Shown in pieces: positions 1 to 21,718 of a DNA stretch of 64,000 nucleotides. Source of the DNA: Actinomyces sp. HMSC035G02. Lineage in GTDB: Bacteria; Actinomycetota; Actinomycetes; Actinomycetales; Actinomycetaceae. Positions within the stretch are counted from its first letter, which is position 1; each line of letters starts with the position of its first letter. The position numbers and the translations under genes are program-made. The stretch covers positions 108,485-172,484 of the forward strand of contig KV835868.1 in NCBI GenBank assembly GCA_001838165.1, in the 5' to 3' direction. The notes under the pieces are model-generated. The model was not told the DNA's origin and did not search any database. It saw only the letters and a list, made by a program, of their open reading frames with translations.

Positions 1-748
1 TGCGCACCGTGATGTCCTCGAAAGGAACGGAGCGAGCAGGGAAGAGCTCAGCCTCGGAGGCGCTCCAGCGACGCGGGTCGCGCGTCGAAAAATCGCCGAA
101 CAGGATTGAGCCGTCGGCTGCCTTCTGCGGGTTCTCGCGGCCCTTGAGGGCGGCGCGCAGCCAGCGCCGGTACAGCGAGGCCTCGTTGACGCGCAGCGCC
201 CGCATTCCCCAGTGGGCGCAGGCCATCGCCGCGGAGGCCAGCTGGCGCGCGGGTGTGGGCAGGCCCGTCGGCGGGTTGGGGATGGAACGCAGGAACATGA
301 GGCGCGCCCACAGCCACGTGCCGCGCGACTGGGCGCGGAAGCGACCGGGGTCGTCCGCGATCTCATCCAGGACGAACAGGTCCACGCCGATCGGCATGCG
401 GAACGAGCGGTCCTTCGCGACCTTCGAGACGAACTCCGAGCCCTTCAAGCCCAGCACGCCGAAGCTGATCGGATAGTTGGGGTGAGTGGCGGGGGAAGCG
501 ATGAAGAACTCCTCCCCGAGGAGGGCCGGGGCCTTGGCGATGAAACGCTCGTAATCCTCCCGGGGCATGCACACGTCCCCGTCGTCGTCCCACGGGATGA
601 AGCCCTGGTGGCGCACAGCTCCGATCGCCGTGCCACCGTAGGCGACGTAGCGCAGATCGAGGAGGGCGCACACGCGGTCGATCTCGGCGAGGCAGCGCTT
701 GGTCACGCGCTGAATGGCTGCCAGGGTTGCGGGGTCTGCTGCGCTCAT
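1..748 (-). CDS. licD: LicD family phosphotransferase, partial (3' end outside window)
   Basis: LicD proteins transfer phosphocholine (or a related phospho-alcohol) from its CDP-activated form onto surface glycans. The visible 249 residues begin at ATG 748, preceded by GGAG, and carry the family signature: YGGTAIGAVRHQGFIPWDDD near residue 40, with the acidic metal-binding cluster. The reading frame is open to the window edge, so the C-terminus is missing. It is a tandem paralogue of the gene just upstream: both contain FEDITV, and about 24 bp around that motif (near positions 6-29 and 912-935) are identical. It would be the last visible gene of the lic operon, 31 bp after its neighbour. Family assignment is firm; phosphocholine as the substrate is inferred from the adjacent licC-licA and licB. 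Confidence 0.87.
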   Translation of the reverse strand, partial: MSAADPATLAAIQRVTKRCLAEIDRVCALLDLRYVAYGGTAIGAVRHQGFIPWDDDGDVCMPREDYERFIAKAPALLGEEFFIASPATHPNYPISFGVLGLKGSEFVSKVAKDRSFRMPIGVDLFVLDEIADDPGRFRAQSRGTWLWARLMFLRSIPNPPTGLPTPARQLASAAMACAHWGMRALRVNEASLYRRWLRAALKGRENPQKAADGSILFGDFSTRDPRRWSASEAELFPARSVPFEDITVR

Positions 749-779
749 CAGTTCTCCGATTGTTTCAGGGCCGTGAGGC

Positions 780-1637
780 TTACAGGCTGTCGGCGTAGGG
801 GCCAAAGTCGATGACCGCGGCCTCATGGTTGTAGCGCTGCTCCGGGGGAGGCAGCTGCATGTAGTCGCCGTATCCGCGGCGCAGCAGGGCGTCGTACTCG
901 TTTTGGATCATCACCGTGATGTCCTCGAAAGGAACGTCGCGGGTGGGGAAGAACTCTTCCTCGCGCACGATCCAGTTCTGCGGGTCGCGCATCGTGAAGT
1001 CCGCGTACACGCCCGTGCCCGCACCCTCGTAGCGGCGAACCGCGCGCTCCCACCGAGCCTGCAGGCTCGCCGGCGTCGCGCGCACCGCCTTCAGGCCCAG
1101 GTGCGCGAGGGTCGTCGCCGAGAAAATCAAGGCCTTCTTCCAGGCGGGAGTGTTGATCAGGTGCGGACGAGGGGTGCCCTGCAAGAACAGCAGGCGACCC
1201 CACAGCCACGACTGGCGCGACATCTCCTGGAAGGCCTTCTCGTCGGACGGAATCTCATCGAGAGGCAGGATGTCAAGGAAGAAGGGCATCCGGTACTTCG
1301 AGTCCTTGTCCGCCTCGGGGATCAACAGGGTTCCCGGCATGACCATCTTCGTGAACATGAAGGGGAAGTCGTCGCGTGTGCGCGTGTTATCCAGGCGGAA
1401 ACGCTCGTCCAGCAGGGCGGGTGCCTCGGCCAGGAAACGCTCGTAGTCGGCGCGCGTCATCATCACGTCGATGTCGTCATCCCACGGAATAAAGCCGCCG
1501 TGGCGGATTGCGCCGATCGCCGTGCCGCCGTAGATCGCATAGGACACCCCGATGCGTCGGCACACCCGGTCCAGCTCGGCCAGGATCAGCGTCAGGAGCT
1601 TCTGGACCTTGCGCAGGTCGGTCTCGGGTGTCGTCAT
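780..1637 (-). CDS. licD: LicD family phosphocholine transferase
   Basis: This 285-residue protein is a complete LicD family member that should attach phosphocholine to a cell-surface polysaccharide. The signature YGGTAIGAIRHGGFIPWDDD followed by IDVMM sits around residues 35-60, with the Asp cluster expected to bind metal in the nucleotidyltransferase-like fold. The start is ATG 1637 because GGAGGAC lies just upstream; an in-frame extension to 1697 lacks a ribosome site. It follows the licB-like gene by 56 bp and precedes a second licD, so two acceptor sites or two polymers may be decorated, as with paired LicD enzymes in pneumococcus (family knowledge). No signal peptide is seen, consistent with a cytoplasmic enzyme acting before export. 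Confidence 0.9.
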   Translation of the reverse strand: MTTPETDLRKVQKLLTLILAELDRVCRRIGVSYAIYGGTAIGAIRHGGFIPWDDDIDVMMTRADYERFLAEAPALLDERFRLDNTRTRDDFPFMFTKMVMPGTLLIPEADKDSKYRMPFFLDILPLDEIPSDEKAFQEMSRQSWLWGRLLFLQGTPRPHLINTPAWKKALIFSATTLAHLGLKAVRATPASLQARWERAVRRYEGAGTGVYADFTMRDPQNWIVREEEFFPTRDVPFEDITVMIQNEYDALLRRGYGDYMQLPPPEQRYNHEAAVIDFGPYADSL

Positions 1638-1693
1638 CAGTCCTCCGAATATGACAAAGCGGGTGGGCGCGCCTGCGCCCACCCGCCATTGTC

Positions 1694-2668
1694 TCACGCC
1701 TGGGAGCTCGTGACCTTCTCCGTTCGCTTGGGAAGCAGGTCACCCCAGTTGGAGGTGGCCGCCAGGACCGTGCCCACGAGGATCACGACGCAGCACACCA
1801 CCTGGGTGGCCGTGGGCACCGTGCCCTGCAGGACGAGTGCGAAGATGATCGCCCACGCCGAGTAGGAGATGTTCAGAGCCATACCGCGCGAAGCGCCGAT
1901 CGCCGACAGTGCCTTGTAATAGAAGAGGTACGAGGCAGTGCCCGCCAAGCCGGCCAGCGCCACGACGCCCGCCGACAGGTGAGCCAGCGAATGCAGCGTG
2001 AAGCCGAAAACGCCCGCGATGGGTGCCACGATGAACAGGTACACGACCGCCGAGGTCGTCTCGCGGATCTGGAGGGCCACCTCGTTATCCACGGCCTCGT
2101 CGCGCATGCCCCACGTGAGGATCACGGCCTCGGACCCCCAACCGATCACGCAGGCCAGCGCGCCGACCACGCCGAGGATCGCATTGCCGCCCTCGATCGG
2201 CTCCGACGTCGCCGACCAACCCGTCGCGACGATCGCGCCAAGCGCGACCAGGAGGGCCACGATCTGGCGGGGAGCCATGCGCTCCTTCAAGAGGATGAAA
2301 GCCAGCAGGGTGCCCAGCGCCGGGTAGAACGTCGAAATGATCGCGGTCAGTCCCGGGCCGATGTTGTCGATCGCGATCAGGTAGCCGCTCATGCCGATCG
2401 GGCCGCCCAGGAGGGCCGCTGCGATGACCGACTTACCGGGGCGCGTGCGCAGCGCCGCCCAGGTGTCCTTCAGGCGGCCTCGGAGAGCCATATACACGAC
2501 CAGGATGACGGCACACGCAACGTCGTGCAGGACCGCGCCGGCGAGCGCCGACTGGCCGAAGTCGGCAAATGGGATCATGGCCAGTGCGATCGCCAGCACG
2601 ACCGTGTCCAGGCCCCATAGAGCGCCCGAGAAGAAGCCGTAGCGCTTGCCTCCGTGCTGAGTTTTCAT
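1694..2668 (-). CDS. licB: LicB-like DMT-superfamily permease (probable choline importer)
   Basis: A 324-residue integral membrane protein of the drug/metabolite transporter (EamA) superfamily with about ten hydrophobic segments from residue 10 to 305, in the two-times-five layout usual for the family. LicB of Haemophilus and pneumococcus is a choline permease of this superfamily, and the position here, between a choline kinase/cytidylyltransferase fusion and two licD genes, is the main argument for choline import. Its ATG overlaps the stop of the upstream licC-licA gene (ATGA), so the two are translationally coupled. Without that context it would only be called an EamA transporter. Confidence 0.82.
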   Translation of the reverse strand: MKTQHGGKRYGFFSGALWGLDTVVLAIALAMIPFADFGQSALAGAVLHDVACAVILVVYMALRGRLKDTWAALRTRPGKSVIAAALLGGPIGMSGYLIAIDNIGPGLTAIISTFYPALGTLLAFILLKERMAPRQIVALLVALGAIVATGWSATSEPIEGGNAILGVVGALACVIGWGSEAVILTWGMRDEAVDNEVALQIRETTSAVVYLFIVAPIAGVFGFTLHSLAHLSAGVVALAGLAGTASYLFYYKALSAIGASRGMALNISYSAWAIIFALVLQGTVPTATQVVCCVVILVGTVLAATSNWGDLLPKRTEKVTSSQA

Positions 2669-4494
2669 GCCAGTTTACCTTCCGTGGAGATCTGAGTGCT
2701 CGAGGCGGCCTCGTAGGCTGCGAGCAGGGAATCGAGTGTGCGTGTCGCGTGGGAGTAGTAGATGTAGAGCCACTCGCCGACGTCGTCGCCTTCGGCCTCC
2801 TTGACCAGCGCCCACAGGTACCAGCACCAGCCGGCGAACACCTCGTAGGCGAAGAAGTGGCGCGCCTCGCGCTCGGAGGGGGCGTGGCCCAGGTAGTACT
2901 CGAGGGCGGCGGCCGCGCGCTCGCGGGTCATCTCCGCAGTGCACACGGTCATTGTGCCGAAGTCGGCGGCCATGTCCGACATGCCCGCGTACTCCCAGTC
3001 GATGAGGCTGATCTTTCCGTCCTTATCCACCAGGAAGTTCGGCGGGAAGAAGTCGTTGTGCGAGGGGACTTTGTCGAAGCCGTCCGCGTCTGCGAAGGCC
3101 TTCAGGCGCAGGACCTTGTCGCGCAGCTCAAAGTATCCGGGAACGTCGATGGGGCCGAAGGCCTTGAGGAGGCCCTCGTAGCGCAAGCCTTCGGTGACAA
3201 AGTCGAAGGAGCGGTCCAGCACGCGACCGGAGGTGTGCAGAGCGCGGTCCATCTCCATGGCCGCCTTGAGCTCCTCGGGGCGGGTGACGTCCAGGTTGCG
3301 CACGTCGCGCACGAAGCGCGAGATCTTCCAGCCCGCTGCGGGGTCACCCGTGAGGAAGGTGTCGTCGATGCCGAGCTCTGCGGCCAGGCGCAGGCCGGCG
3401 AACTCCGCGCTGCGGTCCACGATCTTTTCTGTGCCGATGCCGGGGTGGCGATACACGTATTCGTCGTCGCCTACCGTGAAGTGGCACGACAGGTTCGTGA
3501 TGCCCTGCTTAAGCGGGTAGAAGTCGCGGATGTCCGACTTCTGACAGCCCAGGGTTTCCACGATGTGATCGAAGACCTCAGAGTCCACGTTCTCCATGAA
3601 CAGGGGATCGAAGTTGCGCAGCTCGTCGACCGAATCGAACTCGTGGATGACGCCGTCCGGGTAGCGGCGGATCACCATGTCGAAGGACTTGATGTGGTCC
3701 AGGTAGATGGACTCCCACAGCTTCGACACCGTCTCGGGCAGGTGGTAGACCTGCTCGAGGATTTCGCGGAACTTCGCGGAAAAGACGCGGTCGAAGTAGA
3801 CATGGCCGAGCATGACCCACGCGTCCTTGCCGCCCACGGTCGCGCCCGTGATGCGGTCGCCCGGACCCGTTTTGATGCACCACTCGTCGGTGGGACCCTC
3901 GACGTAGTTCGCCGAGTAGTAGGACTTGTACACGTAGGGTTCGAAGGGGTTCGTGGTGAAGTAGTCGTCCGAAGAACACACGTAGGTGTTGTCCAGGCGG
4001 TCCTTGACGAGCCACAGGGACCCGTTGTTGTTGCGCGTGGCGTATTCGCGGTTGATGACAATGTCGACGCCGTACTTGTCGGCCAGGTAGAAGAAGTATT
4101 CCTTCTTGTAGCCCACGACCAGCGCGATGTTCGTGATGCCGGCTTCGTGGAGCTGGCGGATCTGACGCTCGACGAGGATCTCGCCACGCACCTTGAGCGT
4201 GCCCTTGGGGCGCTCGTAGCTAATGGGGGCGAAGCGCGAGGACAGGCCTGCGGCCATGATGACGGCGCCCGTGACGCGGTAGGGCTCGAGGGCCTCGCGG
4301 CCCGCGTCGGTGATCGCGCGCTCGTCGATGTAGCCGGCGGCCTCGCACTCGCGGGTGGCGGTGTTGACGCGCCCCAGGCTCATGCCGGTCGCCTCCGACA
4401 GTGCCCGCTGCGTGAGGGGAGCGTCGGCCTTGGCCAGTGTGTTCAGGATGTTGAATTGGGGCTCGCTGAGCGTGCCGACGTTGGTCGTGGGCAT
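2665..4494 (-). CDS. licC-licA: Fused winged-helix / CTP:phosphocholine cytidylyltransferase (LicC) / choline kinase (LicA)
   Basis: A 609-residue three-domain protein predicted to phosphorylate choline and then activate it as CDP-choline for the LicD enzymes. Residues about 8-65 form a winged-helix DNA-binding-like domain (LTQRALSEATGMSLGRVNTA). Residues about 73-300 are a nucleotidyltransferase with the sugar/choline-phosphate signature GAVIMAAGLSSRFAP and a downstream lysine (RPKGTL). Residues about 310-600 are an aminoglycoside-phosphotransferase/choline-kinase fold with catalytic HNDFFPPNFLV and metal-binding LIDWEYAG. In Haemophilus and pneumococcus LicA and LicC are separate proteins. 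The start is ATG 4494 with AAAGG about 10 bp upstream. First gene of the lic operon, with a promoter at 4541-4569. Whether the winged helix binds DNA is unknown. Confidence 0.9.
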   Translation of the reverse strand: MPTTNVGTLSEPQFNILNTLAKADAPLTQRALSEATGMSLGRVNTATRECEAAGYIDERAITDAGREALEPYRVTGAVIMAAGLSSRFAPISYERPKGTLKVRGEILVERQIRQLHEAGITNIALVVGYKKEYFFYLADKYGVDIVINREYATRNNNGSLWLVKDRLDNTYVCSSDDYFTTNPFEPYVYKSYYSANYVEGPTDEWCIKTGPGDRITGATVGGKDAWVMLGHVYFDRVFSAKFREILEQVYHLPETVSKLWESIYLDHIKSFDMVIRRYPDGVIHEFDSVDELRNFDPLFMENVDSEVFDHIVETLGCQKSDIRDFYPLKQGITNLSCHFTVGDDEYVYRHPGIGTEKIVDRSAEFAGLRLAAELGIDDTFLTGDPAAGWKISRFVRDVRNLDVTRPEELKAAMEMDRALHTSGRVLDRSFDFVTEGLRYEGLLKAFGPIDVPGYFELRDKVLRLKAFADADGFDKVPSHNDFFPPNFLVDKDGKISLIDWEYAGMSDMAADFGTMTVCTAEMTRERAAAALEYYLGHAPSEREARHFFAYEVFAGWCWYLWALVKEAEGDDVGEWLYIYYSHATRTLDSLLAAYEAASSTQISTEGKLA

Positions 4495-4540
4495 GCGATC
4501 ACCTTTCGTTCATGGAAGTCGCCTGTGCGCTACGTGTTCG

Positions 4541-4569
4541 AGCGTAGCACTATTCGGCAAATTTGTGAA
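4541..4569 (-). promoter_or_regulatory. Sigma-70-type promoter of the lic operon
   Basis: Read on the minus strand, TTCACA (4569-4564) and TACGCT (4546-4541) are separated by exactly 17 bp, a good primary-sigma promoter. Transcription would start near 4534, about 40 bases before the licC-licA start at 4494. This makes the lic genes a transcription unit separable from the DUF2142 gene upstream. Seen in sequence; activity is inferred. Confidence 0.65.
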
Positions 4570-4588
4570 CAGTGTGGGTGTGAAGTGG

Positions 4589-6142
4589 CTATCGACGAGG
4601 CTCGGGCTGTGTTTCTGGGAAGCGCTGCCACAGGACAACGGCCAGCCCAATCGCGATAGCGCCGGCGAGAGAGCCAATGATCCACACGGCCATCGGGCCG
4701 ATCGGAGCCGTCGGCCACCACCACTCGTTGCCCGCGCTCAGGTTCCGCGTTGCGAGGTCGATCGGGTAGCCGTGCTGCGTGTACCCGAACGCGTAGCGCT
4801 CGATGACGAGGTAGAGGGCGCGGGCGTTGGTGAGCGCCCACAGGGCCGCCACAAGGCCCGTGGCTACGCGACCGGCGATGCTGGTGGGGAGGCGGAATGC
4901 CTCGCTGCCCGCAGGCCGCCCCTCGTCGTCCGCGCGGGCGGGGGAGGGGGCCAGGAGCATGAGCGCGAAGACCGCGAAGAGCGGCAGCATGTAGCGCGGC
5001 TGGTAGATCAGGACGTTGTTGAAGTGTCCGCGCAGGCCGATGACAACTGGAACGCCCGTAATCGCGCCGAAAACGGTGACAGCTGAGAGTGCCTTGCGCC
5101 ACGTCAGGGAGCGCAGCGACCAACACAGGACGGCGACGACCACGACGGAGGCGCCGTAGGAGACGGTGCCCTGGTAGGACACGTCGTTCCATCCCGGTCC
5201 GAACAGGTGACCGACGAAGCCGCGCAGGTAGTTGGGTAACGAGGACACGTTGAGCCACGCGATGTGCGTGAGCGAGTATTCCGCCAGCTCGTTGCTCGAA
5301 CCCAGGTGTGAGGCCGCCACGTTCGTGCGGGCCATGACCCAGATGCCCACGACGGAGGCGACGCACGCGAGGATCGCCTCGGGAACGATGCGCCTGCTCA
5401 GCGGTACCGCGAAGGCCAGGGCGACCGTGACGACGAAGAGGAAGAAGGCGCTGTCGCCGCGAGATGTGCACGCCAAGACCGCGCCAGCCAGCGCGCAGGC
5501 AATCAGGCCCACCCGGCGCGGCCCCACCGACCGGGTGGCAGCCAGCAAGCCGGCAGCAAAAGCAAACGTGCCCGTCATCGCCCACGACGACGGGTTCATG
5601 CCCGCGACGAAATAGAAACCCATCGGCAGCCACGCAACCGTCACAGAAACGCTGACCGCGCGTCTCAGCCCCGAATCCGCCAGGGCGATGATCGCGCCGA
5701 TCAGGCCAATCGCGAGCAGCGTGTTCACGGTGCGAAGCGCGAGGACCGCGTGGCTCGTGGAGCGCTGCACGAAGAGGTGGGCGAACTGGTAGTAACCCCA
5801 CGGGTAGTTGCCGTCGTCCCAGCGCAGCGTCGGCGCCAGCTCCTCGTCCGAGGCGTTGAGGGCACACTGAGCGGAATTGTCATGGTCGAAGGCGTAGCAA
5901 GTGACGTACTCCTTGGCCAGCGACTGCGGCACCATGACGGCCTTTTCGCCGTCCTTGGTGGAAATCTGGCAGCCCGTCTCGTCCACCGGCGGAGGGCACC
6001 ACATGGCCCCCACGTGGAAGTCTTCGTCCGGGGAGGCCCCGACCGGTGAAGCCACGACCCACGCCAACGAGGCCGCAATCACCGCGGCGACGAGGATGAG
6101 CGCCGCGACGAGCGTGCGGCGCTGCACGGCTGACGTGGGCAT
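4589..6142 (-). CDS. DUF2142 family membrane protein (putative surface-glycan assembly)
   Basis: A 517-residue polytopic membrane protein. It has a first hydrophobic segment at about residues 10-35, a loop containing SPDEDFH and cysteines (WCPPP, TGCQ), then roughly ten further membrane segments. This is the DUF2142 pattern, a family common in actinobacterial polysaccharide loci and thought to resemble lipid-linked-sugar-dependent glycosyltransferases (family knowledge, function unproven). The start is ATG 6142, with AGGA eight bases upstream, rather than the GTG at 6163. A paralogue of identical predicted length lies at 20081-21634. It lies between a GT4 gene (28 bp upstream) and the lic operon. 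Confidence 0.8.
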   Translation of the reverse strand: MPTSAVQRRTLVAALILVAAVIAASLAWVVASPVGASPDEDFHVGAMWCPPPVDETGCQISTKDGEKAVMVPQSLAKEYVTCYAFDHDNSAQCALNASDEELAPTLRWDDGNYPWGYYQFAHLFVQRSTSHAVLALRTVNTLLAIGLIGAIIALADSGLRRAVSVSVTVAWLPMGFYFVAGMNPSSWAMTGTFAFAAGLLAATRSVGPRRVGLIACALAGAVLACTSRGDSAFFLFVVTVALAFAVPLSRRIVPEAILACVASVVGIWVMARTNVAASHLGSSNELAEYSLTHIAWLNVSSLPNYLRGFVGHLFGPGWNDVSYQGTVSYGASVVVVAVLCWSLRSLTWRKALSAVTVFGAITGVPVVIGLRGHFNNVLIYQPRYMLPLFAVFALMLLAPSPARADDEGRPAGSEAFRLPTSIAGRVATGLVAALWALTNARALYLVIERYAFGYTQHGYPIDLATRNLSAGNEWWWPTAPIGPMAVWIIGSLAGAIAIGLAVVLWQRFPETQPEPRR

Positions 6143-6170
6143 GCGGTGTCCTACTTCGGGCACGGTCGAG

Positions 6171-7334
6171 TCAAGAACGGGCGGCGGCGCGGAATGCCTC
6201 GATATGGACGGAAGCGGCGCGAGCCCACGTGAACTCGTCGGCGCGCGGAATCGCGGCGGCCCCCAGGGCCTCGCGACGAGCAGGGTCGTCCAGCAGCTCC
6301 GTCAGGGCCGAGGCGATCGAGTCGGGGTCGATGTCGCAGTAGGCGACGGCGTCGCCGCCGACCTCCGGCAGGGAGGTCAGACGAGTCGTCAGCGTTGCGG
6401 CACCGCAGCTCATCGCTTCCAGGACCGGCAGGCCGAAGCCCTCTGCGATCGAGGGGTAGGCCAGAATGACGCAGCCCGAGAGGAAACCGGGCAGGTCCTC
6501 GAGGGGCAGGTAGCCGGGGCGCAGGACCGTCAGGTGCTCGGGCACCGAGGCCAGGGCCGGGTCGATGTCCTCGTCCCAGCCCTTGCCGCCCGCGAGCACG
6601 AGGGCAGGCGGATTCGGGCGGTCGGAGACGGCCTTGACCCACCCGCGCACCAGGTTCGGCACGTTCTTGCGGGGCTCCAGCGTGCCCAGGAAGCCGATGT
6701 AGTCGCGGCCCTCCAGGCCCAGCGATGCCTTGACGCGTTCGCGCTCGGCGTCCGAGACCGGGTGGAAGATCGAGCGGTCCACGCCGTGATAGGCCACGTA
6801 GAACTGCGAGGGATCGCCGCCCGCGTACTTGATGGTCTCGTCGCGCGTGGCCAGCGAGGGAACCACGAGGGCGTCCGCGCGGCGAATCGCGCGGCGAATC
6901 GCCGTTGTGAAGAAGCGCTGCTTGAGGCGCGAGTGGGCCTGCGGGTGCGAGAAGAACGTCGCGTCGTGCAGTGTGATGACGACGGGAACGCCCGGGAACT
7001 GCGGGGACGTGTAGTGCGGGGAGTGCAGGACGTCGGGGCGGACCTTGCGGATCAGCTTGGGCAAGCCCGTCTGCTCCCAGGCCATGCGCGCGGGACGGGA
7101 CTCGAAGCGCCGCGAAATCGGGATGATGCGGGCCGAGGGCAGGCGCGTCGCGAAGTGCTCGGCGTCGCGCTCCTGGACTGCCATCGTCAGGTCCACGCCC
7201 TGCTCGACCAGCTCGGGCACCAGGTCGTCCACGTAGCGGCCGACGCCGCCCAGGTCTGCGGGGATCGCGGTGCCGTCCAGCAGAACGCGGATCGGATGCG
7301 AGTGAGAAACGAAGTGGGCCACGATCATCCCCAT
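6171..7334 (-). CDS. Glycosyltransferase family 4 protein
   Basis: A 387-residue retaining glycosyltransferase of the GT-B fold. The N-terminal domain starts with a beta strand and a glycine-rich turn (LLDGTAIPADLGGVGRYV). The C-terminal nucleotide-sugar domain contains GFLGTLEPRKN and the E-x7-E motif EGFGLPVLEA. It probably adds a sugar from a nucleotide donor to a lipid-linked precursor in the cytoplasm. ATG 7334 is used; an in-frame ATG at 7328 is equally possible and neither has a strong ribosome site. It is divergent from another GT4 at 7434, with 99 bp between them, and is followed by DUF2142. Donor and linkage cannot be read from the sequence. Confidence 0.85.
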   Translation of the reverse strand: MGMIVAHFVSHSHPIRVLLDGTAIPADLGGVGRYVDDLVPELVEQGVDLTMAVQERDAEHFATRLPSARIIPISRRFESRPARMAWEQTGLPKLIRKVRPDVLHSPHYTSPQFPGVPVVITLHDATFFSHPQAHSRLKQRFFTTAIRRAIRRADALVVPSLATRDETIKYAGGDPSQFYVAYHGVDRSIFHPVSDAERERVKASLGLEGRDYIGFLGTLEPRKNVPNLVRGWVKAVSDRPNPPALVLAGGKGWDEDIDPALASVPEHLTVLRPGYLPLEDLPGFLSGCVILAYPSIAEGFGLPVLEAMSCGAATLTTRLTSLPEVGGDAVAYCDIDPDSIASALTELLDDPARREALGAAAIPRADEFTWARAASVHIEAFRAAARS

Positions 7335-10484: not shown

Positions 10485-10488
10485 AGCC

Positions 10489-12351
10489 GTGAAGCGCGCC
10501 GGTATTTTCCTGTTCTTTGATCCCCAGGGCCTCGTCGACGACTACATCGTGGAGTGCCTGACCTCGCTGCGCGAGTACCTCGACGAGATCCTCGTCGTCT
10601 CCAACTCTGCTCTGGACGATACTGCTCGTGAGCGCCTCCTGAAGGGTGCCACCGAGGTCTTCGAGCGCGAAAACACCGGCTTTGACGTGGGCGGATACCG
10701 CGACGGCATTGCCCGCTTCGGCTGGGACCGCCTCGGCCAGATCGACGAGCTGATCCTCTTCAACTACACCTTCTTCGCGCCCGTCAACCCGTGGAAGAAC
10801 CTCTTCGACCGCGTGGACGCCGCCGGAGCGGTGGACTTCTGGGGCATCACCGAACACGACGAGGTGCGCCCCCACCCCTTCCTGGCAGCCACCCGCATGC
10901 CGCGCCACATCCAGTCCCACTGGATTGCCGTGCGCAACCCGCTGCTCAGCTCCCCGGACTTCCGCAAGTACTGGGACGAGATGCCGCCGATTCGTTCCTA
11001 CAACGACTCGATCCAGTGGCACGAGTCGCGCTTCACGGAGTACTTCGGCAACCTCGGATACACGCACGTCGTGGCCTACCCGCGCGAGGACTACCCCTCG
11101 CGCAACCCCGTCTTCGACAACGCCTCGATGCTGCTTGCGGACGGCTGCCCGATTCTCAAGCGCCGCAACCTCTTCCACGACCCGCTCTACCTGGACCGCC
11201 ACGCGATCATCGGCGCGGACATGCTGGAGCTCGCGGAGAAGGCCGGATACGACACCGACCTGATTCTCACGAACCTTGCGCGTACCTCACGTCCGCGTGA
11301 CCTCGTGACCAACGCGGGCCTGACGACCGTCATCTCTCCGCGCGCCGACCAGGCCACCCTGGAAGCCGCCGCCTCCCTGAAGGTCCTCGCGGTCGCCCAC
11401 ATTTTCTACGCCGACATGGCAGATGAGATCCTCGACCGCCTGAGCGTCCTGCCGGAGGGCTACCACCTGGTGGCCACGACCTCGAACGAGGAGAACAAGG
11501 CCCTCATCGAGGCGCGCGCTCAGGAACGAGGCGTGGACGCCGACGTGCGCGTCGTGTCCTCCAACCGCGGGCGCGACATCGGCGCGTTCCTGGTGGACTG
11601 TGGCGACGTGCTGACCTCCGGCGAGTACGACATCGTCGTGAAGATCCACTCCAAGAAGTCCGTCCAGGACGACTACAACGCCGCCCAGCTCTTCAAGCAG
11701 CACCTCTACGACAACCTGCTGGCCTCCTCCGATCACGTGGCCGGCATCCTCGCGGAGTTCGCGGCCCACCCGGGCCTGGGCATGGTGATCGCGCCCATGC
11801 CGCACATGGGCTACCCGACGATGGGCCACGCGTGGTTCGCGAACCGCGCCCCCGCCCGCGAGTTCGCGAAGAAGGTCGGCATCACCGTCCCCTTCGACGA
11901 CCACCAGCCGCTGGCCCCCTACGGCTCCATGTTCATCGCGCGCCCGGAGGCACTGTCTCTGTTGACCGGCGCGGGCCTCGTCCCGGAGGACTTCCCCGAG
12001 GAAGGCGGCTACAAGGACGGCTCCCTGGCGCACGTTATCGAGCGCCTCTTGGCCTACGCGGTCCTGTCGCGCGGCTACTACGTGCGCCCCGTCATGACCC
12101 CGAAGTGGGCGGGCGTGTACTACGGCTACCTTGAGTACAAGCTGGCCGCGACCTCGTCGATGATGCCCGCCTTCGCGATCGACCAGGTGCCTTTCCTCAA
12201 GGCGCGCATGGGCGCGGTCCCGAACCTGCTGGGTGCCGTCAAGACCAACATCATGGTGCGTACCCCCGGACTGGGCAACGCGCTCAAGCCGGCGTACCGC
12301 GCGGCCCGCGGAGCCGTCCACAAGATCCGATCCATGAAGGGTGAGCGATGA
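10489..12351 (+). CDS. Rhamnan synthesis protein F (RgpF) family glycosyltransferase
   Basis: A 620-residue protein of the RgpF family, involved in making rhamnose-containing wall polysaccharides in streptococci and related polymers elsewhere. Two similar halves are visible. Residues about 5-280 contain ENTGFDVGGYRDGI, ILFNYTFFAPV and FWGITEHDE. Residues about 305-560 contain SSNRGRDIGAFLV and VVKIHSKKS. The start is GTG 10489 with GGGGGAGTAAAGCC upstream; the epimerase stops at 10484. It overlaps the acyltransferase that follows by ATGA. It supports a rhamnan-like backbone or side chain for this locus, consistent with rmlB at 22520. The number of rhamnose units added is unknown. Confidence 0.88.
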   Translation: MKRAGIFLFFDPQGLVDDYIVECLTSLREYLDEILVVSNSALDDTARERLLKGATEVFERENTGFDVGGYRDGIARFGWDRLGQIDELILFNYTFFAPVNPWKNLFDRVDAAGAVDFWGITEHDEVRPHPFLAATRMPRHIQSHWIAVRNPLLSSPDFRKYWDEMPPIRSYNDSIQWHESRFTEYFGNLGYTHVVAYPREDYPSRNPVFDNASMLLADGCPILKRRNLFHDPLYLDRHAIIGADMLELAEKAGYDTDLILTNLARTSRPRDLVTNAGLTTVISPRADQATLEAAASLKVLAVAHIFYADMADEILDRLSVLPEGYHLVATTSNEENKALIEARAQERGVDADVRVVSSNRGRDIGAFLVDCGDVLTSGEYDIVVKIHSKKSVQDDYNAAQLFKQHLYDNLLASSDHVAGILAEFAAHPGLGMVIAPMPHMGYPTMGHAWFANRAPAREFAKKVGITVPFDDHQPLAPYGSMFIARPEALSLLTGAGLVPEDFPEEGGYKDGSLAHVIERLLAYAVLSRGYYVRPVMTPKWAGVYYGYLEYKLAATSSMMPAFAIDQVPFLKARMGAVPNLLGAVKTNIMVRTPGLGNALKPAYRAARGAVHKIRSMKGER

Positions 12352-13619
12352 GCCTGGCCTCCACGATTCGGGCTGCGGCCCCCCACACGCCCCAGTCCGT
12401 CGCGCAGGCATTCAACTCCAGGTCCAACTCGATCGGGTTTTTGCGCTGGCTGATGGCCTTCATGGTCATCTTCTCGCACGCTGGCCCGATCGCCGGATTC
12501 TACGGCGGCGAGGACCTGGGCGTGCAGATCTCGAAGGAGCAGTCCATCGGTGGTGTCGCCGTCGCGGGATTCTTCTTTTTCTCGGGCTTCCTGATCACGC
12601 GCTCGCGCATGGGGCGCGCGACGATCTGGCGCTACATGTGGCGCCGCGTCCTGCGTATTTTCCCCGCCTTCTGGACGGCCCTGCTTCTCACGGTCGGCAT
12701 TCTCGCGCCGATCGCCTACTGGCACACCTTCCACAACATCTCCGGCTACCTACACCCGGCCACCGAGTCACCGCTCACGTACTTCGTGAACAACATGTGG
12801 CTGAACCTCGGCCAGCGCAACATCGCCGGAATGGGCGAGAACCTGCCGTACTTCATCCTGCACGGCGCGCGCGACTGGAACGGCTCGGCCTGGACGCTCA
12901 TCTACGAGTTTAAGGCCTACATCCTGGTGGCGATCCTCGGGCTGTTCGGGGCGCTCGCGAACCGTAAGGTGGGAGGTGCCTTCGCCCTCGTGCTGATCGC
13001 CCTCAACGCTCTGCAGTGGATGGGCGCGGGTCAGGTCTCCAACGTCAACTACCTGCTGCGCGACCCCTTCATGCTGATGTTCATGGGCCCCTTCGCCTTC
13101 GGCATGCTGTTCACGCTCTACGGCGACAAGATCCCCATGGACTCGCGCCTGGCGTGGGGCGGCCTCATCTTCGGAGTGCTCTCCTACGCGTCGGGCGGCT
13201 GGAACATCGTCGGCCAGTACGGTTTCCTGTACTTCCTCATGTACCTGGCGATTCGCCTGCCCCTGCAGAACTGGGAGAAGCACGGCGATCTGTCCTACGG
13301 CATCTACATCTACGCCTGGCCGATCATGGCGTTCGCCGCCTACTTCCACCTGCAGGATCGCGGCTGGATCGCCTACCACCTGACGGTTGTCGTGACCGTG
13401 CACATCCTGGCCTACCTGTCGTGGCACCTCATCGAGAAGCCTGCGATGAGCCTGAAGAACTATCTGCCGCGCTGGATGGATAAGCTCATCGAGCACTTCC
13501 GTCCCACGTACGAGGCCGTGGCCCGCCGCATCGTCACGCCGGCCCTGTCCTCGACCAGGATCGCGACGGTCATGGAGGCCGAAGAGGCCTCCGCGCGCAC
13601 CGAGGAGGAGTCCAAGTGA
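12348..13619 (+). CDS. Acyltransferase family 3 membrane protein (OafA/YrhL-like)
   Basis: A 423-residue integral membrane O-acyltransferase of the acyltransferase-3 family, which moves acetyl or other short acyl groups across the membrane onto exported glycans. It begins with a short soluble stretch, then FLRWLMAFMVIFSHAGPIAG with the conserved membrane-embedded histidine, then GGVAVAGFFFFSGFLITRS, and about ten membrane segments to residue 370. The start overlaps the rgpF-like stop (ATGA at 12348). The next gene, an AlgX/AlgJ-like SGNH protein, overlaps its end by GTGA, so the pair probably forms a two-part O-acetylation system. Substrate is inferred to be the polymer of this locus. Confidence 0.87.
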   Translation: MSLASTIRAAAPHTPQSVAQAFNSRSNSIGFLRWLMAFMVIFSHAGPIAGFYGGEDLGVQISKEQSIGGVAVAGFFFFSGFLITRSRMGRATIWRYMWRRVLRIFPAFWTALLLTVGILAPIAYWHTFHNISGYLHPATESPLTYFVNNMWLNLGQRNIAGMGENLPYFILHGARDWNGSAWTLIYEFKAYILVAILGLFGALANRKVGGAFALVLIALNALQWMGAGQVSNVNYLLRDPFMLMFMGPFAFGMLFTLYGDKIPMDSRLAWGGLIFGVLSYASGGWNIVGQYGFLYFLMYLAIRLPLQNWEKHGDLSYGIYIYAWPIMAFAAYFHLQDRGWIAYHLTVVVTVHILAYLSWHLIEKPAMSLKNYLPRWMDKLIEHFRPTYEAVARRIVTPALSSTRIATVMEAEEASARTEEESK

Positions 13620-14920
13620 GCGAGAAGAAGGCCGCGGGCCAGTTCAAGGAATCCGAGTCCGGTCTGCGGGACGTCTCCTTCGACGAGGGTGTCCCCGCGG
13701 GTTCGTGGAAGCATCGCCTCCGCTACGTGCCCCTCGCCGTTCTCCTTGCGGGCGCGTGCGCTGCCACCGGCGTGGGCGCCTGGTACAAGGCCACCCACCC
13801 CTCTCCTCAGCCGGCTGCGGCACCCGCCGCCCAGGCCTCGTCCTTCGCGCGCACCACGCCCCAGTCCCTGCCCGAGGTCTGCGCGCCCACCCCGCGCGCC
13901 GACGTGGGCCCGTGGACGCCCGGCGTGGCTGGCACCGCGGGGTACCTGCCCACCGACGCCGCCCAGGCCTCGTTCGAGCAGTCCATGACCGGCGTTTCCA
14001 CCTACGTGCAGGGCCGCGATGGCTACCTGTTCCTCTCCGACGTCTTCAACGCGAACTTCTCCCAGGCGGTGGGCCGCGTGCGCCCCACCCCCGAGCAGGT
14101 GAGCGCGTGGGACCGCTACATGAGCGGTATCGAGGCCGCCGCGAGTGAGCAGGGCGCGACCGCACTGTTCATGCCCGCCCCGGCGACGTGGGACGTCTAC
14201 TCCGACAAGCTGCCCCAGTGGGCCGACCCGCTGATGGGCACAACCTCCCTGGATCTCATGCGTTCGGCGCTGCCCACTCGCGCGTGGGTGGACGTGCGTG
14301 AGGGCCTGCACGAGGCCCGCGCGGGGAGCGAGGCGCCGCTGTACTCGGCAGTCAACCCCCACTGGTCTCCCTACGCCGCGCACGTGGCCTGGAACCAGAC
14401 GCTGTCCTGCCTGGCCGCGGTCAACCCGCAGTTCGAGGGCCTGCCTTCCCTGACGCCGTCTGGCGTGAGCGGCGTGGACGCCCCCAACGAGTACGAGGCC
14501 CTGGGTGCCCCGGCCCAGAGCGGCCCGTGGGCGGTGCCCACCTACGACCAGGACCCCGGCAGCGTCCACCTGCTGCAGCTGGAATCCCGTGATGAGCTGG
14601 CCGATACCGCCGCGCGCCTGTCCGAGGTGAGCGCCGCCCCCGAGGTCTCCCTGGCCACCCCCGTCGACTTCCAGAACAAGCCGGCCCTCACCTACAACCC
14701 GAACGGACGCGGCACCGCGCTCATCGTGCGCGACTCCCAGGGCAACAACCTGGGGCCCGACGTGGCCGCGACCTTCGAATACACGATCCAGGTTGGCCAC
14801 GCCCTCGACTCCGATCAGCCGACGGACGTCGCCGCCCTCATCGAGGCCTACAAGCCCAGCGTCGTGATCGTGGAGTTCACGCAGCGCTACCTCGCGCTCA
14901 CGCCGGCCGCCGGCAAGTAG
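13616..14920 (+). CDS. Membrane-anchored AlgX/AlgJ-like SGNH hydrolase-fold protein (putative O-acetyltransferase)
   Basis: A 434-residue protein with one N-terminal membrane segment (about residues 37-57), an Ala/Pro-rich linker and an extracytoplasmic domain resembling the AlgX/AlgJ SGNH acetyltransferase domain. The landmarks are GRDGYLFLSDV near residue 135, NPHWSPYAAHVAW at 247-259 and IVRDSQG around residue 374. In AlgX/AlgJ the His motif is DxHW and the Ser nucleophile sits in a (G/R)DS motif. Here His249 and Ser374 are present, but the first residue of the His motif is Asn. The start is GTG 13616, overlapping the acyltransferase stop. It presumably receives acyl groups from the upstream membrane acyltransferase and transfers them to the glycan outside the cell. 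Confidence 0.72.
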   Translation: MSEKKAAGQFKESESGLRDVSFDEGVPAGSWKHRLRYVPLAVLLAGACAATGVGAWYKATHPSPQPAAAPAAQASSFARTTPQSLPEVCAPTPRADVGPWTPGVAGTAGYLPTDAAQASFEQSMTGVSTYVQGRDGYLFLSDVFNANFSQAVGRVRPTPEQVSAWDRYMSGIEAAASEQGATALFMPAPATWDVYSDKLPQWADPLMGTTSLDLMRSALPTRAWVDVREGLHEARAGSEAPLYSAVNPHWSPYAAHVAWNQTLSCLAAVNPQFEGLPSLTPSGVSGVDAPNEYEALGAPAQSGPWAVPTYDQDPGSVHLLQLESRDELADTAARLSEVSAAPEVSLATPVDFQNKPALTYNPNGRGTALIVRDSQGNNLGPDVAATFEYTIQVGHALDSDQPTDVAALIEAYKPSVVIVEFTQRYLALTPAAGK

Positions 14921-14960
14921 AATAGATTTCCTGACCACGACAGAAGCGATGGGAGTAGCC

Positions 14961-15803
14961 GTGTCTGAGACGAAACGGGTCATCGACCTGACGGTGCGCA
15001 TGGCGCAGCGCTCGATCTCCTCGGAGTTCAAGGGCACCGCGCTCGGCCGCCTGTGGTCCTTCATCAACCCGCTCGCGACGATCGCCGTGTACGCGCTGAT
15101 CTTTGGCGTCGTCTTTCGCGGCGAAGCCGATAAGGGCGTGAACTCGGGCCTGTCCTCGTTTGCGCTGTGGATCGGCGTGGGCGTCATCGCCTGGAACTTC
15201 ATGTCGAGCGGCATCCAGCGAGGCATGGACTCCCTCGTAGGCAACTCCGGCCTGCTCACCAAGGTCTACTTCCCGCGTCAGGTCCTCATCTACTCCTCGG
15301 TGCTGGCCCTGGCCTACGACTTCGCGTTCGAGCTGGGCGTCATCATCCTCATCATGTGCATCGCCGGCGGTCCCGGCGTGCTCCTCATGATCCCCGCGGT
15401 CATCGTCATCACGGCGCTCGCGATGCTCTTCGTGATCGGCATGGGCCTCATCCTGTCGGTCGCGTCGGTCTACTTCCGTGACATCTCGCACCTGTGGCAG
15501 ATCTTCAACCAGATCTGGATGTACGCCTCCGGCGTCGTCTTCTCCCTGTCGATGCTCAACAAGGTCCAGACGGACTTGGCGGCCAAGGGCTGGACGTGGG
15601 GCGGCGAGCCCCTCCCGATCGTCACGATCTTCCGCCTCAACCCCGCCGAGCTCTTCCTCGAGGCCTACCGCTCGACGCTGTACGGCTTCGCGATGCCGTC
15701 CTGGCAGGTGTGGCTCGGCTGCGCCGCCTGGGCCTTCGGCATCTTCGGTCTCGGCTCGCTGATTTTCCGCCGCTTCTCGGCACGAATCGTGGAGGAACTC
15801 TGA
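14961..15803 (+). CDS. wzm: ABC-2 type polysaccharide export permease (Wzm-like)
   Basis: A 280-residue ABC-2 permease with six membrane segments, of the Wzm/TagG/RfbD type that exports finished undecaprenyl-linked polymers or teichoic acids. The N-terminal amphipathic region (RSISSEFKGTALGRLWSFINP) is typical of polysaccharide permeases. GTG 14961 is chosen because GGGAG lies five to six bases upstream, placing it inside the slightly longer frame that opens at ATG 14949. It is followed with a one-base overlap by its ATPase, so the two form one exporter. Promoter-like sequence was not identified; it probably continues the upstream operon after 40 bp. Confidence 0.88.
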   Translation: MSETKRVIDLTVRMAQRSISSEFKGTALGRLWSFINPLATIAVYALIFGVVFRGEADKGVNSGLSSFALWIGVGVIAWNFMSSGIQRGMDSLVGNSGLLTKVYFPRQVLIYSSVLALAYDFAFELGVIILIMCIAGGPGVLLMIPAVIVITALAMLFVIGMGLILSVASVYFRDISHLWQIFNQIWMYASGVVFSLSMLNKVQTDLAAKGWTWGGEPLPIVTIFRLNPAELFLEAYRSTLYGFAMPSWQVWLGCAAWAFGIFGLGSLIFRRFSARIVEEL

Positions 15804-17095
15804 TGACGAACGCGATCTCGGTGGAGGGCGTCTCCAAGCGCTTCCGCATCTACAAGAACCGCAATCAGTCCCTCAAGGGCGCGTTCCTGCAGCGTTCGCG
15901 CGCGCAGTTCGAGGAGTTCTGGGCCCTCGACGACGTCTCCTTCGAGATCCCGCAGGGCAAGACCTTCGGCCTGCTCGGACACAATGGTTCGGGCAAGTCG
16001 ACGCTGCTCAAGTGCATCGCGAAGATCCTGACCCCGGACAAGGGCTCGATCTCCTCGACGGGTCGCATGGCCGCCATGCTCGAGGTCGGCTCCGGCTTCC
16101 ACCCCGAGCTGTCGGGCCGCGAGAACATCTACCTCAACGGCGCGATCCTGGGCATGAGCAAGAAGGAGATCGACTCCAAGCTGGACGCGATCATCGACTT
16201 CTCCGGCGTCGAACGCTTCATCGATCAGCCGGTGAAGAACTACTCCTCGGGCATGTACGTGCGCCTGGGGTTCTCCGTGTCGATCCACGTCGAGCCGGAC
16301 ATCCTCCTCGTTGACGAGGTCCTGGCCGTGGGCGACATGGAATTCCAGAACAAGTGCATGGACAAGTTCGCCCAGCTCAAGGATCAGGGGCGCACGGTCG
16401 TCGTCGTGTCCCACGGCCTCGAGCAGATGCGCACCTTCTGCGACCAGGCCGCCTGGCTGGACCACGGCACGCTTGTCGACGTGGGCGGGGCCGCCGAGGT
16501 CATCGACACCTACTCCGACGTCGCTCACCACGCCGTCGAGGTCGAGGGCGGCGGCACGCGCTTCGGCAGCGGCGAGGCCATGATCGAGCGCATCGACCTA
16601 CTGTCCTCGTCCGGCGAGCCCACGTCGCTCGTGTACCCGGGCGATCCGGTTCGACTGCGCTTGCACTACCGCGCGAACGAGCGCATCGAGTCCCCGGTCT
16701 TCGGTGCCTCCATCGACACCCGCGAGGGCGTGTTTGTGTGGGGCCTGCACGGCATGGACGCCTGCTACGTGCCCACCTCGATCGAACCGGGCACCGGTCA
16801 CCTCGACATCGACATCCCGCGTCTGACCTTCAACCCGGGCGCCTACACGATTTCCGCGGCCATCCAGAACCAGGACATGACCAGCGTCATCGACGCCCTG
16901 CAGAAGGCCCGTCGCTTCGACGTCCTGCCCGGCCCGGGCATGGAGTCCGGCGGCCTGGTGAACCTGGGTGCATCGTTCACGGGCCTGACGCCCGCGCGGC
17001 CCATGCGCGACGTGCCCAGGCGCGGTGCCGCCGACTACGAGCACCTCGCGCGCATGCAGGCCCAGCAGGCCGACGCGCTCGAGAACGAGGACTGA
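15803..17095 (+). CDS. wzt: ABC polysaccharide exporter ATPase with C-terminal glycan-binding-type domain (Wzt-like)
   Basis: A 430-residue ATPase energising export by the permease upstream. The nucleotide-binding domain has Walker A GHNGSGKST (about residue 63), the signature YSSGMYVRL, Walker B ILLVDEVLAVGD and the switch His in VVVSHG. Residues about 255-400 form an extra beta-rich domain like the Wzt C-terminal domain, which in E. coli O9a recognises the capped end of the polymer and so gates export (family knowledge). ATG 15803 overlaps the permease stop and is preceded by GGAGG. The extra domain suggests that only polymer carrying a particular terminal modification leaves the cell. Ends just before a strong terminator. 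Confidence 0.9.
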   Translation: MTNAISVEGVSKRFRIYKNRNQSLKGAFLQRSRAQFEEFWALDDVSFEIPQGKTFGLLGHNGSGKSTLLKCIAKILTPDKGSISSTGRMAAMLEVGSGFHPELSGRENIYLNGAILGMSKKEIDSKLDAIIDFSGVERFIDQPVKNYSSGMYVRLGFSVSIHVEPDILLVDEVLAVGDMEFQNKCMDKFAQLKDQGRTVVVVSHGLEQMRTFCDQAAWLDHGTLVDVGGAAEVIDTYSDVAHHAVEVEGGGTRFGSGEAMIERIDLLSSSGEPTSLVYPGDPVRLRLHYRANERIESPVFGASIDTREGVFVWGLHGMDACYVPTSIEPGTGHLDIDIPRLTFNPGAYTISAAIQNQDMTSVIDALQKARRFDVLPGPGMESGGLVNLGASFTGLTPARPMRDVPRRGAADYEHLARMQAQQADALENED

Positions 17096-17115
17096 CGGAC
17101 GCATCGACGTTCGAG

Positions 17116-17158
17116 GCCGGGGCCCAGCGGAGTGATTGCCGCCGGGCCCCGGCTTTTT
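17116..17158 (+). terminator. Intrinsic terminator of the polysaccharide export operon
   Basis: A perfect 10-bp stem (17116-17125 with 17144-17153, gccggggccc/gggccccggc) is followed directly by five T residues. It ends the plus-strand operon after the Wzt-like gene. Confidence 0.85.
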
Positions 17159-17246
17159 GTCGAGTTGATGATTCAAACGTGCCCGCACTGCGTGATGGGC
17201 AGCCTACACTTATGGGAGAACTGTTCTCCAACAACAAGGCACTGTC

Positions 17247-18971
17247 ATGGCAACGACGCCCACGCTCGCCCGCCGCGCGCACATGCGCGCCCTCACCGCG
17301 GCTCTGACCCTCGCGCTCATCGCCCTGCCCGCGCAGGCCCGCGCTGACGCCGAGGACGAGGCCGCACCGCAGTCCGCAGCGCAAAGCTCCACTGCGGCCC
17401 AGTCCGCCCCGCAGGCCGAGCCGTCGGCCTCTCCCAGCCCCGAGACCACGGACGCGCCCGAGCCCGCCGCCCCCGCAGCGAACGGCGAGGACCGGGCACC
17501 CACTGCCTCGTCGGAGAGCGAGGAGCCTCCGACGATGGCCGCTCCCGATGAGACCGGACGGGGCGCGTGGATGCGTGACTCGGTCGGCTGGTGGTGGCGG
17601 CGAGCCGACGGCACGTACCCGGCCTCCCAGTGGGTGGGGATCGGGGGCGCCCGCTACTACTTCTACGACAGCGGCTACATGGCCACCGGCTGGTTTCGTG
17701 ACGGTGCCGACTGGTTCTTCCTGGCTCCCTCTGGGGCGCTCGTTGGCGGCTGGCTGAAAGACGGTGGCTCGTGGTACTACCTGGATCCCGCGAGCGGCGT
17801 GATGCGCACGGGCCTGACCGCGGTGGATGGCACGTGGTACTACCTGGATTCGTCGGGTGCGATGCGCACCGGGTGGGTGCTCCTGGACGACGGGTGGCAC
17901 TACTTCGCGTCCAACGGCTCCCAGATCGGCGGTTGGCTGCGCGACGGGGGAGAGTGGTACTACCTCGACCCGAACAGCGGAGTGATGCGCACGGGGCTCA
18001 CCGGCGTGGATGGCTCGTGGTACTACCTGGGGTCGTCGGGTGCGATGCGCACCGGCTGGGAGCACCTCTTCGACGGGTGGCACTTCTTCGCCTCCAACGG
18101 TGCCCAGATGGGAGGCTGGCTGCGCGACGGGGGAGAGTGGTACTACCTTGACCCCGACACCGGCGTCATGCGAACCGAGCCCCTGGAGCTGAACGGTCGC
18201 CGCTACGTGTTCGACGCCTCGGGCGCGTGGCGCGGGTACGAGGCCCCGGCCGGCTACCTGCAGCCCACCGACCACATCACGAGCCTCGGGGATGCGACTA
18301 ACACGCTCACCTGGGGCATGAACGGCACCAAGGTACGCATCGCACAGGTGCGCCTCGGCCTGTGGCATGCAAACAAGCTCGCCTCCGTCGACGCGCCCTT
18401 CGTGGCCGCCGTCAAGAACTTCCAGCAGCGCGCAGGCCTGCCCGTCACCGGCGTCGTCGACAAGGCCACCTGGGACGCCATGGACACCGGATACCCGTGG
18501 ACCGTCGACCAGTACCAGGCCACGCCCCTGCCCCTGACGGCCACGCGCGGCGAGCGCGTCGAGGCCATGATCGGGTACGCGTGGAACCAGACGGGCTCGT
18601 CCTACACGTGGGGCGGCGCGGGCCCCTACGACCAGGGATTCGACTGCTCCGGCCTGGTCCTCCAATCCCTCTACGCCGCGGGCCTGGATCCACAGCCCAT
18701 CGACGTCATCAAGCACGCGTGGCCCTCCTACCGAACGTCGCAGGAGCTCTACGCCTACCCGTACTTCCAGCATGTGCCCCTCGCCCAGCGCCAGCGCGGT
18801 GACCTCATCTTCTACACGACGAGCGGCACCGTCACACACGTCGCCATCTACCTGGGCGACGACATGATCGTCCACACCGACTGGATGGGGCGACCCGCCC
18901 GCATGCAGCACATCACCGCGGGATACGGGTGGGATCGTATGACGCCAGACGTTGTGCGCCCGCTGCCCTAG
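17247..18971 (+). CDS. Secreted choline-binding-repeat protein with peptidoglycan-binding and NlpC/P60 hydrolase domains
   Basis: A 574-residue secreted protein. Residues 1-34 are a signal peptide ending AQARA. Residues 35-105 are an Ala/Pro/Glu-rich linker. Residues about 108-330 hold at least eight 20-residue choline/glucan-binding-type repeats (WYYLDSSGAMRTGW pattern), organised into a 61-residue superrepeat. Residues about 350-410 resemble a PG_binding_1 domain (VAAVKNFQQRAGLPVTGVVD). Residues about 430-574 are an NlpC/P60 cysteine peptidase with Cys467 in FDCSG and His531 in THVAIYLG. It should cleave peptidoglycan peptides while docked on choline-bearing polymer. Pneumococcal autolysins use the same repeat type to hold teichoic-acid phosphocholine, so the lic operon in the same locus gives a ready ligand. 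Starts at ATG 17247. Confidence 0.9.
   Translation: MATTPTLARRAHMRALTAALTLALIALPAQARADAEDEAAPQSAAQSSTAAQSAPQAEPSASPSPETTDAPEPAAPAANGEDRAPTASSESEEPPTMAAPDETGRGAWMRDSVGWWWRRADGTYPASQWVGIGGARYYFYDSGYMATGWFRDGADWFFLAPSGALVGGWLKDGGSWYYLDPASGVMRTGLTAVDGTWYYLDSSGAMRTGWVLLDDGWHYFASNGSQIGGWLRDGGEWYYLDPNSGVMRTGLTGVDGSWYYLGSSGAMRTGWEHLFDGWHFFASNGAQMGGWLRDGGEWYYLDPDTGVMRTEPLELNGRRYVFDASGAWRGYEAPAGYLQPTDHITSLGDATNTLTWGMNGTKVRIAQVRLGLWHANKLASVDAPFVAAVKNFQQRAGLPVTGVVDKATWDAMDTGYPWTVDQYQATPLPLTATRGERVEAMIGYAWNQTGSSYTWGGAGPYDQGFDCSGLVLQSLYAAGLDPQPIDVIKHAWPSYRTSQELYAYPYFQHVPLAQRQRGDLIFYTTSGTVTHVAIYLGDDMIVHTDWMGRPARMQHITAGYGWDRMTPDVVRPLP
17771..18180 (+). repeat. 183-bp tandem superrepeat inside the choline-binding region
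   Basis: The sequence gtggtactacct recurs at 17771, 17954 and 18137, an exact 183-bp (61-codon) period, with long near-identical stretches such as cgcgacgggggagagtggta. Each unit encodes three 20-residue ligand-binding repeats. Two units are complete and a third is partial. Such DNA can gain or lose units by recombination. Confidence 0.85.
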
Positions 18972-21634: not shown

Positions 21635-21718
21635 GAAATGAGCCAATCTGTCCGGGATAGGTACGTCTAATGTACACGAGTCCGGGCTCGGCCCGGCGGG
21701 GGCGAGGCCGCGCGCAGG

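Follow-up and report, generated by a model that had tools for sequence, protein, structure and literature searches.

Can an actinobacterium decorate a surface glycan with phosphocholine and use this decoration to hold its own secreted proteins? To our knowledge, most examples of surface proteins anchored to choline come from the pneumococcus and its kin. The question is raised by a 64,000-nucleotide stretch of the genome of Actinomyces sp. HMSC035G02 (hereinafter, the window), of which positions 1-18971, the region analysed here, combine genes for a Lic-type phosphocholine pathway, among them a fused licC-licA gene (licCA), with genes for glycan synthesis and export and for a cell-wall hydrolase carrying choline-binding repeats. 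Pfam domain scans of the open reading frames (ORFs) of the window agree, in gene identities and in positions, with the initial annotation, which had reported two licD genes, licB, licC-licA, glycosyltransferases, an exporter and a secreted hydrolase (Table 1). Here we argue that the window encodes a phosphocholine surface-display system that includes a self-tuned operon, a reading to which we assign a probability of about 0.75. The Lic-1 type pathway with reader proteins, as first outlined, finds support in sequence, fold, co-occurrence and linkage; what that outline overlooked is a winged helix-turn-helix domain (wHTH) at the head of the licCA product and a conserved site at the licCA promoter.

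The predicted phosphocholine pathway

Homologues of LicA, LicB, LicC and LicD are all present together in the cluster. The licB product has a single PDB match with an E value of 0.001 or less, to LicB itself (7b0k/7paf, 3e-33). The fused protein resembles CTP:phosphocholine cytidylyltransferase (1jyk, 1e-38) in residues 73-299 and choline kinase (4r77, 7e-27) in residues 315-589, both of which we take to be structures of pneumococcal proteins; the winged helix occupies approximately residues 9-66 at the N-terminal end (HTH_24, 6.6e-10). Of the two licD genes counted initially, both carry PF04991, and licD1 is incomplete in the window; its intact form (299 residues) is found in a relative (L095:3735-4634), from which the start at MSAAD was borrowed.

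The following sequence of events can be envisaged. LicB would import choline, the LicA part of the fusion would phosphorylate it, the LicC part would then make CDP-choline, and the two LicD proteins would transfer phosphocholine, inside the cell, onto a glycan that would be built by the neighbouring glycosyltransferases together with RgpF and exported by Wzm/Wzt; as first proposed, this glycan might contain rhamnose. Secreted repeat proteins, namely the NlpC/P60 hydrolase of the window and some 20 proteins in the single-contig relative G113, would attach non-covalently to the choline tags. Finally, the winged helix of LicC-LicA would bind the inverted repeat over its own promoter, so that the operon would be tuned to choline or CDP-choline.

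The LicD proteins also bring up a different possibility, namely that the product of the Lic enzymes is a tagged lipid or glycolipid, or phosphatidylcholine, and that the repeat proteins have another ligand, such as glucan. In NCBIfam, both LicD proteins match the Mycoplasma Mf1 cholinephosphotransferase and nothing else (1e-16 and 8e-13, far under its cut-off), and LicC-LicA fusions serve phosphatidylcholine synthesis in Treponema. The repeats of the hydrolase and the distribution of the genes, considered in the next two sections, bear on this possibility and make it, in our view, improbable.

The putative choline-binding hydrolase

The hydrolase consists, from the N- to the C-terminus, of a signal peptide (recognised by eye), a repeat solenoid at about residues 105-330, a PG_binding_1 domain and an NLPC_P60 domain (PF00877, 1.3e-15), where C467, H531 and H543, read from the sequence, are presumably the Cys and the two His of NlpC/P60 endopeptidases. 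The repeats match Choline_bind_3 (PF19127) with an E value of 7.8e-42 and 141 bits, five-fold the curated cut-off of 27. Both tryptophans expected of a pneumococcal-type pocket are present in six of the eight regular repeats, the first being replaced by leucine in the other two; the two-tryptophan choline pocket of pneumococcal repeats is described in PMC4929436. AlphaFold models the repeats as a regular solenoid (pLDDT of about 70-91 across residues 111-330), and beyond them the model is poor (mean pLDDT 54), so nothing is claimed from it on the NlpC/P60 part. When the repeat model was searched with Foldseek, Pce (2bib) ranked first, and the LytB module (7pl2) had the lowest rmsd, 2.9 Å, among the 50 matches listed. 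Homologues of the hydrolase come mainly in lengths of 513, 574 and 635 residues; the step of 61 residues equals three repeats, taken here as one turn of the solenoid.

Glucan binding by such repeats is part of the lipid-tag alternative. The family also contains toxin and glucan-binding members, prominent in both the sequence and the fold matches (clostridial toxin and glucansucrase repeats rank high as well), and this weighs against a choline-binding role. Against glucan, the hydrolase stays far under the curated cut-off of the glucan-binding repeat family glucan_65_rpt (72.4 vs 147.7 bits), and the YY of its repeats is preceded by W, a place mostly taken by K in the toxin repeats among the matches listed.

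Among the closest known parallels are the pneumococcal LytB and LytC, which share with the hydrolase an N-terminal choline-binding module, a C-terminal wall-lytic domain and the GYMA motif, located here at residue 143; the catalytic part, in contrast, is NlpC/P60 with PG_binding_1 and not a glycosidase. According to PMC4929436, the GYMA motif has so far been described for LytB and LytC alone.

The hydrolase gene had been described as lying directly after the exporter. It does start 152 bp past the end of wzt, but the gap holds, at 17141-17153, a hairpin and T run resembling a terminator (one found vs 0.2 expected), so the gene may be a separate transcription unit. An inverted repeat at 17215-17229 was considered as a second control site upstream of the hydrolase and rejected, since the orthologues shown lack it; nor was a GAAC-N0-6-GTTC repeat found near the starts of 18 other repeat proteins of G113. 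Among phage records with a match, 160 of 189 carry Streptococcus names, and none among the matches listed is named after Actinomyces.

As for the hydrolase being the reader of the choline tag, its repeats are indeed of the choline-binding type, but it would be just one of many, such proteins numbering about 20 in G113, where the listing contains 20 repeat-bearing frames. Of 17 G113 frames scanned for domains, seven have a subtilase domain, two have LRR repeats (with a subtilase domain in one case) and three have nothing but choline-binding repeats; one frame each combines the repeats with amidase and glucosaminidase, L,D-transpeptidase, BNR (sialidase-type), fucosidase or pullulanase domains. 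In L231:348-1799, choline-binding repeats are fused to an L,D-transpeptidase domain.

Co-occurrence and linkage of LicCA and repeat proteins

Co-occurrence across the Actinomycetaceae had been put forward as a check, and it holds: in a sample of 200 genomes of this family (LicCA match at E of 1e-30 or better; no more than 33 frames were scored in any genome, which makes the repeat numbers per genome lower bounds), repeats were found in 54, LicCA in 67 (63 full length, 4 partial) and LicD in 72. LicCA is present in 49 of the 54 repeat-bearing genomes, and all 67 genomes with LicCA have a LicD match; five genomes have repeats only, 18 LicCA only and 128 neither (Fisher P = 1e-25, ignoring kinship). 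Similarly, among 197 Coriobacteriia, where repeats occur in 48 genomes (46 above the curated cut-off) and LicCA in 52, both are found in 36, repeats only in 12, LicCA only in 16 and neither in 133 (Fisher P = 6e-17, likewise ignoring kinship). A further 27 LicCA genomes, reached by locus, have repeats in 17 cases (16 above the cut-off).

The genes are also linked. Twenty of the 54 repeat-bearing Actinomycetaceae genomes, chosen mostly for few repeats, comprise 11 with LicCA and a single repeat protein, four without LicCA and five with two or three repeat proteins. In nine of the 11, the single repeat protein is encoded 2-27 kb from licCA, in one 228 kb away and in one on another contig; one of these 11 repeat proteins is broken into two frames. 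Six repeat genes flank licCA in two Collinsella loci. Sixty licCA loci were read for about 18-20 kb on either side, contig permitting, and within this distance homologues of the window proteins are found as follows: LicD in 53 loci, Wzt in 46, LicB in 43, Wzm in 41, a repeat protein in 30 and RgpF in 28. Both the proximity of a polysaccharide exporter and the coupling of LicCA to the repeats, in occurrence and in position, argue against a lipid tag with unrelated repeat proteins.

Several observations weigh against a tight pairing. Most telling is the genome G202, a single contig of 2.14 Mb with at least 36 repeat matches (33 of 72 candidate frames scored), including, by eye, one subtilase-like and one fucosidase-like protein, and with no LicCA or LicD match; it has no Wzt match at 1e-30, and LicB was not searched for. 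No other observation speaks as strongly against a strict one-to-one pairing. It is one of the five, of 54, repeat-bearing Actinomycetaceae genomes that lack matches to both LicCA and LicD; the four others (G194, G142, G201 and G158; L224-L227) have related repeat proteins, which inspection by eye and resemblance to the G113 BNR protein suggest to be of the sialidase type. LicCA is missing in 12 of the 48 repeat-bearing Coriobacteriia. Conversely, LicCA is found without repeats in 18 Actinomycetaceae and 16 Coriobacteriia genomes and in ten of the 27 further genomes; Actinomyces gerencseriae (G006) has the pathway but, unlike the window, no repeat match, and neither have two other named species with LicCA. 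Finally, the P values above take no account of kinship.

The repeat proteins that occur without LicCA or LicD matches count in favour of a lipid tag, and they also suggest that such proteins might bind the phosphocholine of neighbours or of the host rather than mainly the producer's own. The latter possibility fits G202 and the four sialidase-type genomes; it fits poorly with the presence of LicCA in 49 of the 54 repeat-bearing Actinomycetaceae genomes, often near a repeat protein, and we regard it as very improbable.

The putative control site at licCA

The licCA gene is preceded by a GTTC-N27-GAAC inverted repeat, the sole copy with such spacing in the window. Within it, TTCACA (4569-4564) and TACGCT (4546-4541), resembling -35 and -10 boxes, are 17 bases apart. 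GTTC-N26-28-GAAC was sought in the 200 bp upstream of 127 licCA loci (140 loci minus ten from duplicate genomes and three with less than 150 bp upstream). The site is present in 107 of the 121 loci with a detected winged helix vs one of the six without (Fisher P = 2e-4); when one locus per 60%-identity cluster is kept, the respective counts are 94 of 108 and one of six. After shuffling of the upstream sequences, each set of 63-65 contained a mean of 0.4-0.5 sites, with a maximum of three; of 2468 stretches taken at random from these licCA loci, 25 had the site (both controls preceded removal of the last duplicate). In 49 distinct aligned sites, the first half-site is followed by A in 48, and the TAnnnT before the second half-site has its T, A and T in 45, 44 and 48, respectively. 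Of 52 Actinomycetaceae loci, 46 have a third half-site no more than 60 bases further on (13 on average and 22 at most after shuffling), and in 42 its distance is a constant 22-24.

Two features of an autoregulatory fusion were found, a DNA-binding domain fused to an enzyme and a conserved site at its own promoter. The site occurs at licCA loci of Actinomycetaceae, Coriobacteriia, Gardnerella, Lachnospiraceae, Erysipelothrix and spirochaetes. Since it accompanies the gene across phyla, with a varying spacer, it is best explained by the gene's own winged helix reading the site. The licCA product would then be a self-regulating choline enzyme, as far as can be judged from the sequence. In five genomes, the strict site pattern occurs exactly once per genome, at licCA (five of five; reversed control, 0). 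A wider regulon was considered and set aside, no strict site lying outside licCA in these genomes; two one-mismatch sites lie elsewhere.

Alternatively, the repeat could be read by another regulator, or could be a mere promoter feature, with the winged helix otherwise employed. The overlap of the site with the -35- and -10-like boxes is compatible with this, and DNA binding by the winged helix is only predicted; the site is found at L057, where no winged helix was detected. Furthermore, 14 of the 121 loci with a winged helix have no site within 200 bp upstream, three of them having one 2-3 kb upstream, which also weighs against self-regulation. However, a second regulator common to all the groups listed above seems unlikely, and the strict site occurs just once per genome in the five genomes; we view this alternative as unlikely, if less so than a lipid tag. 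It is fairly probable that wHTH-LicC-LicA is self-regulating and would occupy its own 35-bp promoter repeat, and that the enzyme and the site moved between phyla as a unit together with choline-anchored surface proteins, which would account for a large part of the enzymes secreted by some oral and gut Actinomycetota.

Relation to known systems and evolutionary history

Like the pneumococcal lic1/lic2 phosphocholine teichoic-acid system, the present one combines LicA, LicB, LicC and LicD homologues with proteins that carry choline-binding repeats, wall hydrolases among them. It differs in the fusion of LicC and LicA behind a winged helix and in the exporter, which is Wzm/Wzt; no match to the TacF-type/Wzx flippase family was found among the 44 window ORFs scanned, the window beginning inside licD1.

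Both Lic genes of Actinomyces and choline-binding proteins of Actinomyces odontolyticus have been reported before. Specifically, Lic-1 enzymes of the same pathway are reported in Actinomyces viscosus and A. gerencseriae, with phosphocholine seen by antibody only and its structure unknown, and the term 'choline-binding' is absent from that text (PMC10434233). In A. odontolyticus XH001, choline-binding protein genes are upregulated when the epibiont TM7x is attached (PMC6166536, citing He et al. 2015); this text mentions neither LicD nor phosphorylcholine. Among the open-licence papers examined, we found no description of the linked system or of the conserved site, which does not show its absence from print.

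The suggestion that this is an independent actinobacterial version of the pneumococcal system is not supported. In a quick tree built from 79 LicCA rows, with 24 of its 76 inner branches open, one clade (SH-aLRT 100) amid Coriobacteriia rows unites the window with 13 named Actinomycetaceae loci, an Actinomycetaceae bin (L054) falls outside this clade, and Gardnerella groups with Collinsella stercoris and its kin; given this placement, the system does not look independently invented. In addition, the repeats of the hydrolase are homologous to the pneumococcal choline-binding repeats. The closest LicCA loci are 98%, 94% and 91% (Actinomyces bouchesdurhonensis) identical to that of the window, followed by Schaalia georgiae at 79%; judging from these identities, the window would belong in, or close to, the Schaalia odontolytica group. 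The 98% and 94% loci (L001 and L002) are titled Xylanimonas cellulosilytica and Sanguibacter keddieii, respectively, and the titles look wrong.

Anchoring to choline appears to be an organising principle of the cell surface in oral and gut Actinomycetota, where the anchored set would comprise, besides wall hydrolases, proteases and an L,D-transpeptidase as well as a fucosidase, a pullulanase and a sialidase-type protein. If so, choline would release the repeat proteins, and loss of licD would abolish their attachment. The TM7x host strain, with its reportedly responsive choline-binding protein genes, is a ready model, and the conserved site offers a simple assay of how tag synthesis is matched to choline supply.

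Gene content of the locus

The features of the locus are collected in Table 1. No tRNAs were found in the window, and no known RNA family reached its gathering score.

Table 1. Features of the phosphocholine locus, in window coordinates
Feature	Position	Strand	Evidence
licD1, phosphocholine transferase family; truncated at the window edge, with some 249 of 299 codons left	1..748	-	PF04991 2.2e-26
licD2, phosphocholine transferase family, WDDDIDV motif	780..1637	-	PF04991 6e-38; FKRP 6kaj 2e-5
licB, predicted choline importer, DMT superfamily	1694..2668	-	LicB 7b0k/7paf 3e-33
wHTH-LicC-LicA fusion (licCA)	2665..4494	-	HTH_24, 1jyk and 4r77 matches
Third GAAC half-site, adjoining ribosome-binding sequence AAAGGTG	4509..4512	-	sequence
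Inverted repeat GTTC-N27-GAAC astride -35/-10-like promoter	4536..4570	-	sequence
DUF2142 membrane protein	4589..6163	-	PF09913 1.8e-33
Family 4 glycosyltransferase (start approximate)	6171..7334	-	PF13439 1.1e-26
Family 4 glycosyltransferase	7434..8549	+	PF00534 2.2e-26
Family 2 glycosyltransferase	8546..9532	+	PF00535 1e-9
NAD-dependent epimerase/dehydratase	9633..10484	+	PF01370 5.2e-22
RgpF-family polysaccharide synthesis protein	10471..12351	+	PF05045 4.2e-138
Membrane O-acyltransferase	12348..13619	+	PF01757 8.2e-20
AlgX-like SGNH protein	13616..14920	+	PF16822 4.1e-7
Wzm, ABC exporter membrane subunit	14949..15803	+	PF01061 7.4e-10
Wzt, ABC exporter ATPase with Wzt C-terminal domain (Wzt_C)	15803..17095	+	PF14524 5.4e-25, PF00005 2.7e-21
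NlpC/P60 cell-wall hydrolase with choline-binding repeats	17247..18971	+	PF19127, PF00877, Choline_bind_1, PG_binding_1
Family 2 glycosyltransferase	19041..20084	-	PF00535 2.2e-20
Second DUF2142 membrane protein	20081..21646	-	PF09913 5e-43

The AlgX-like gene, together with nearly the gene order of the window, is kept in eight of the 60 licCA loci.

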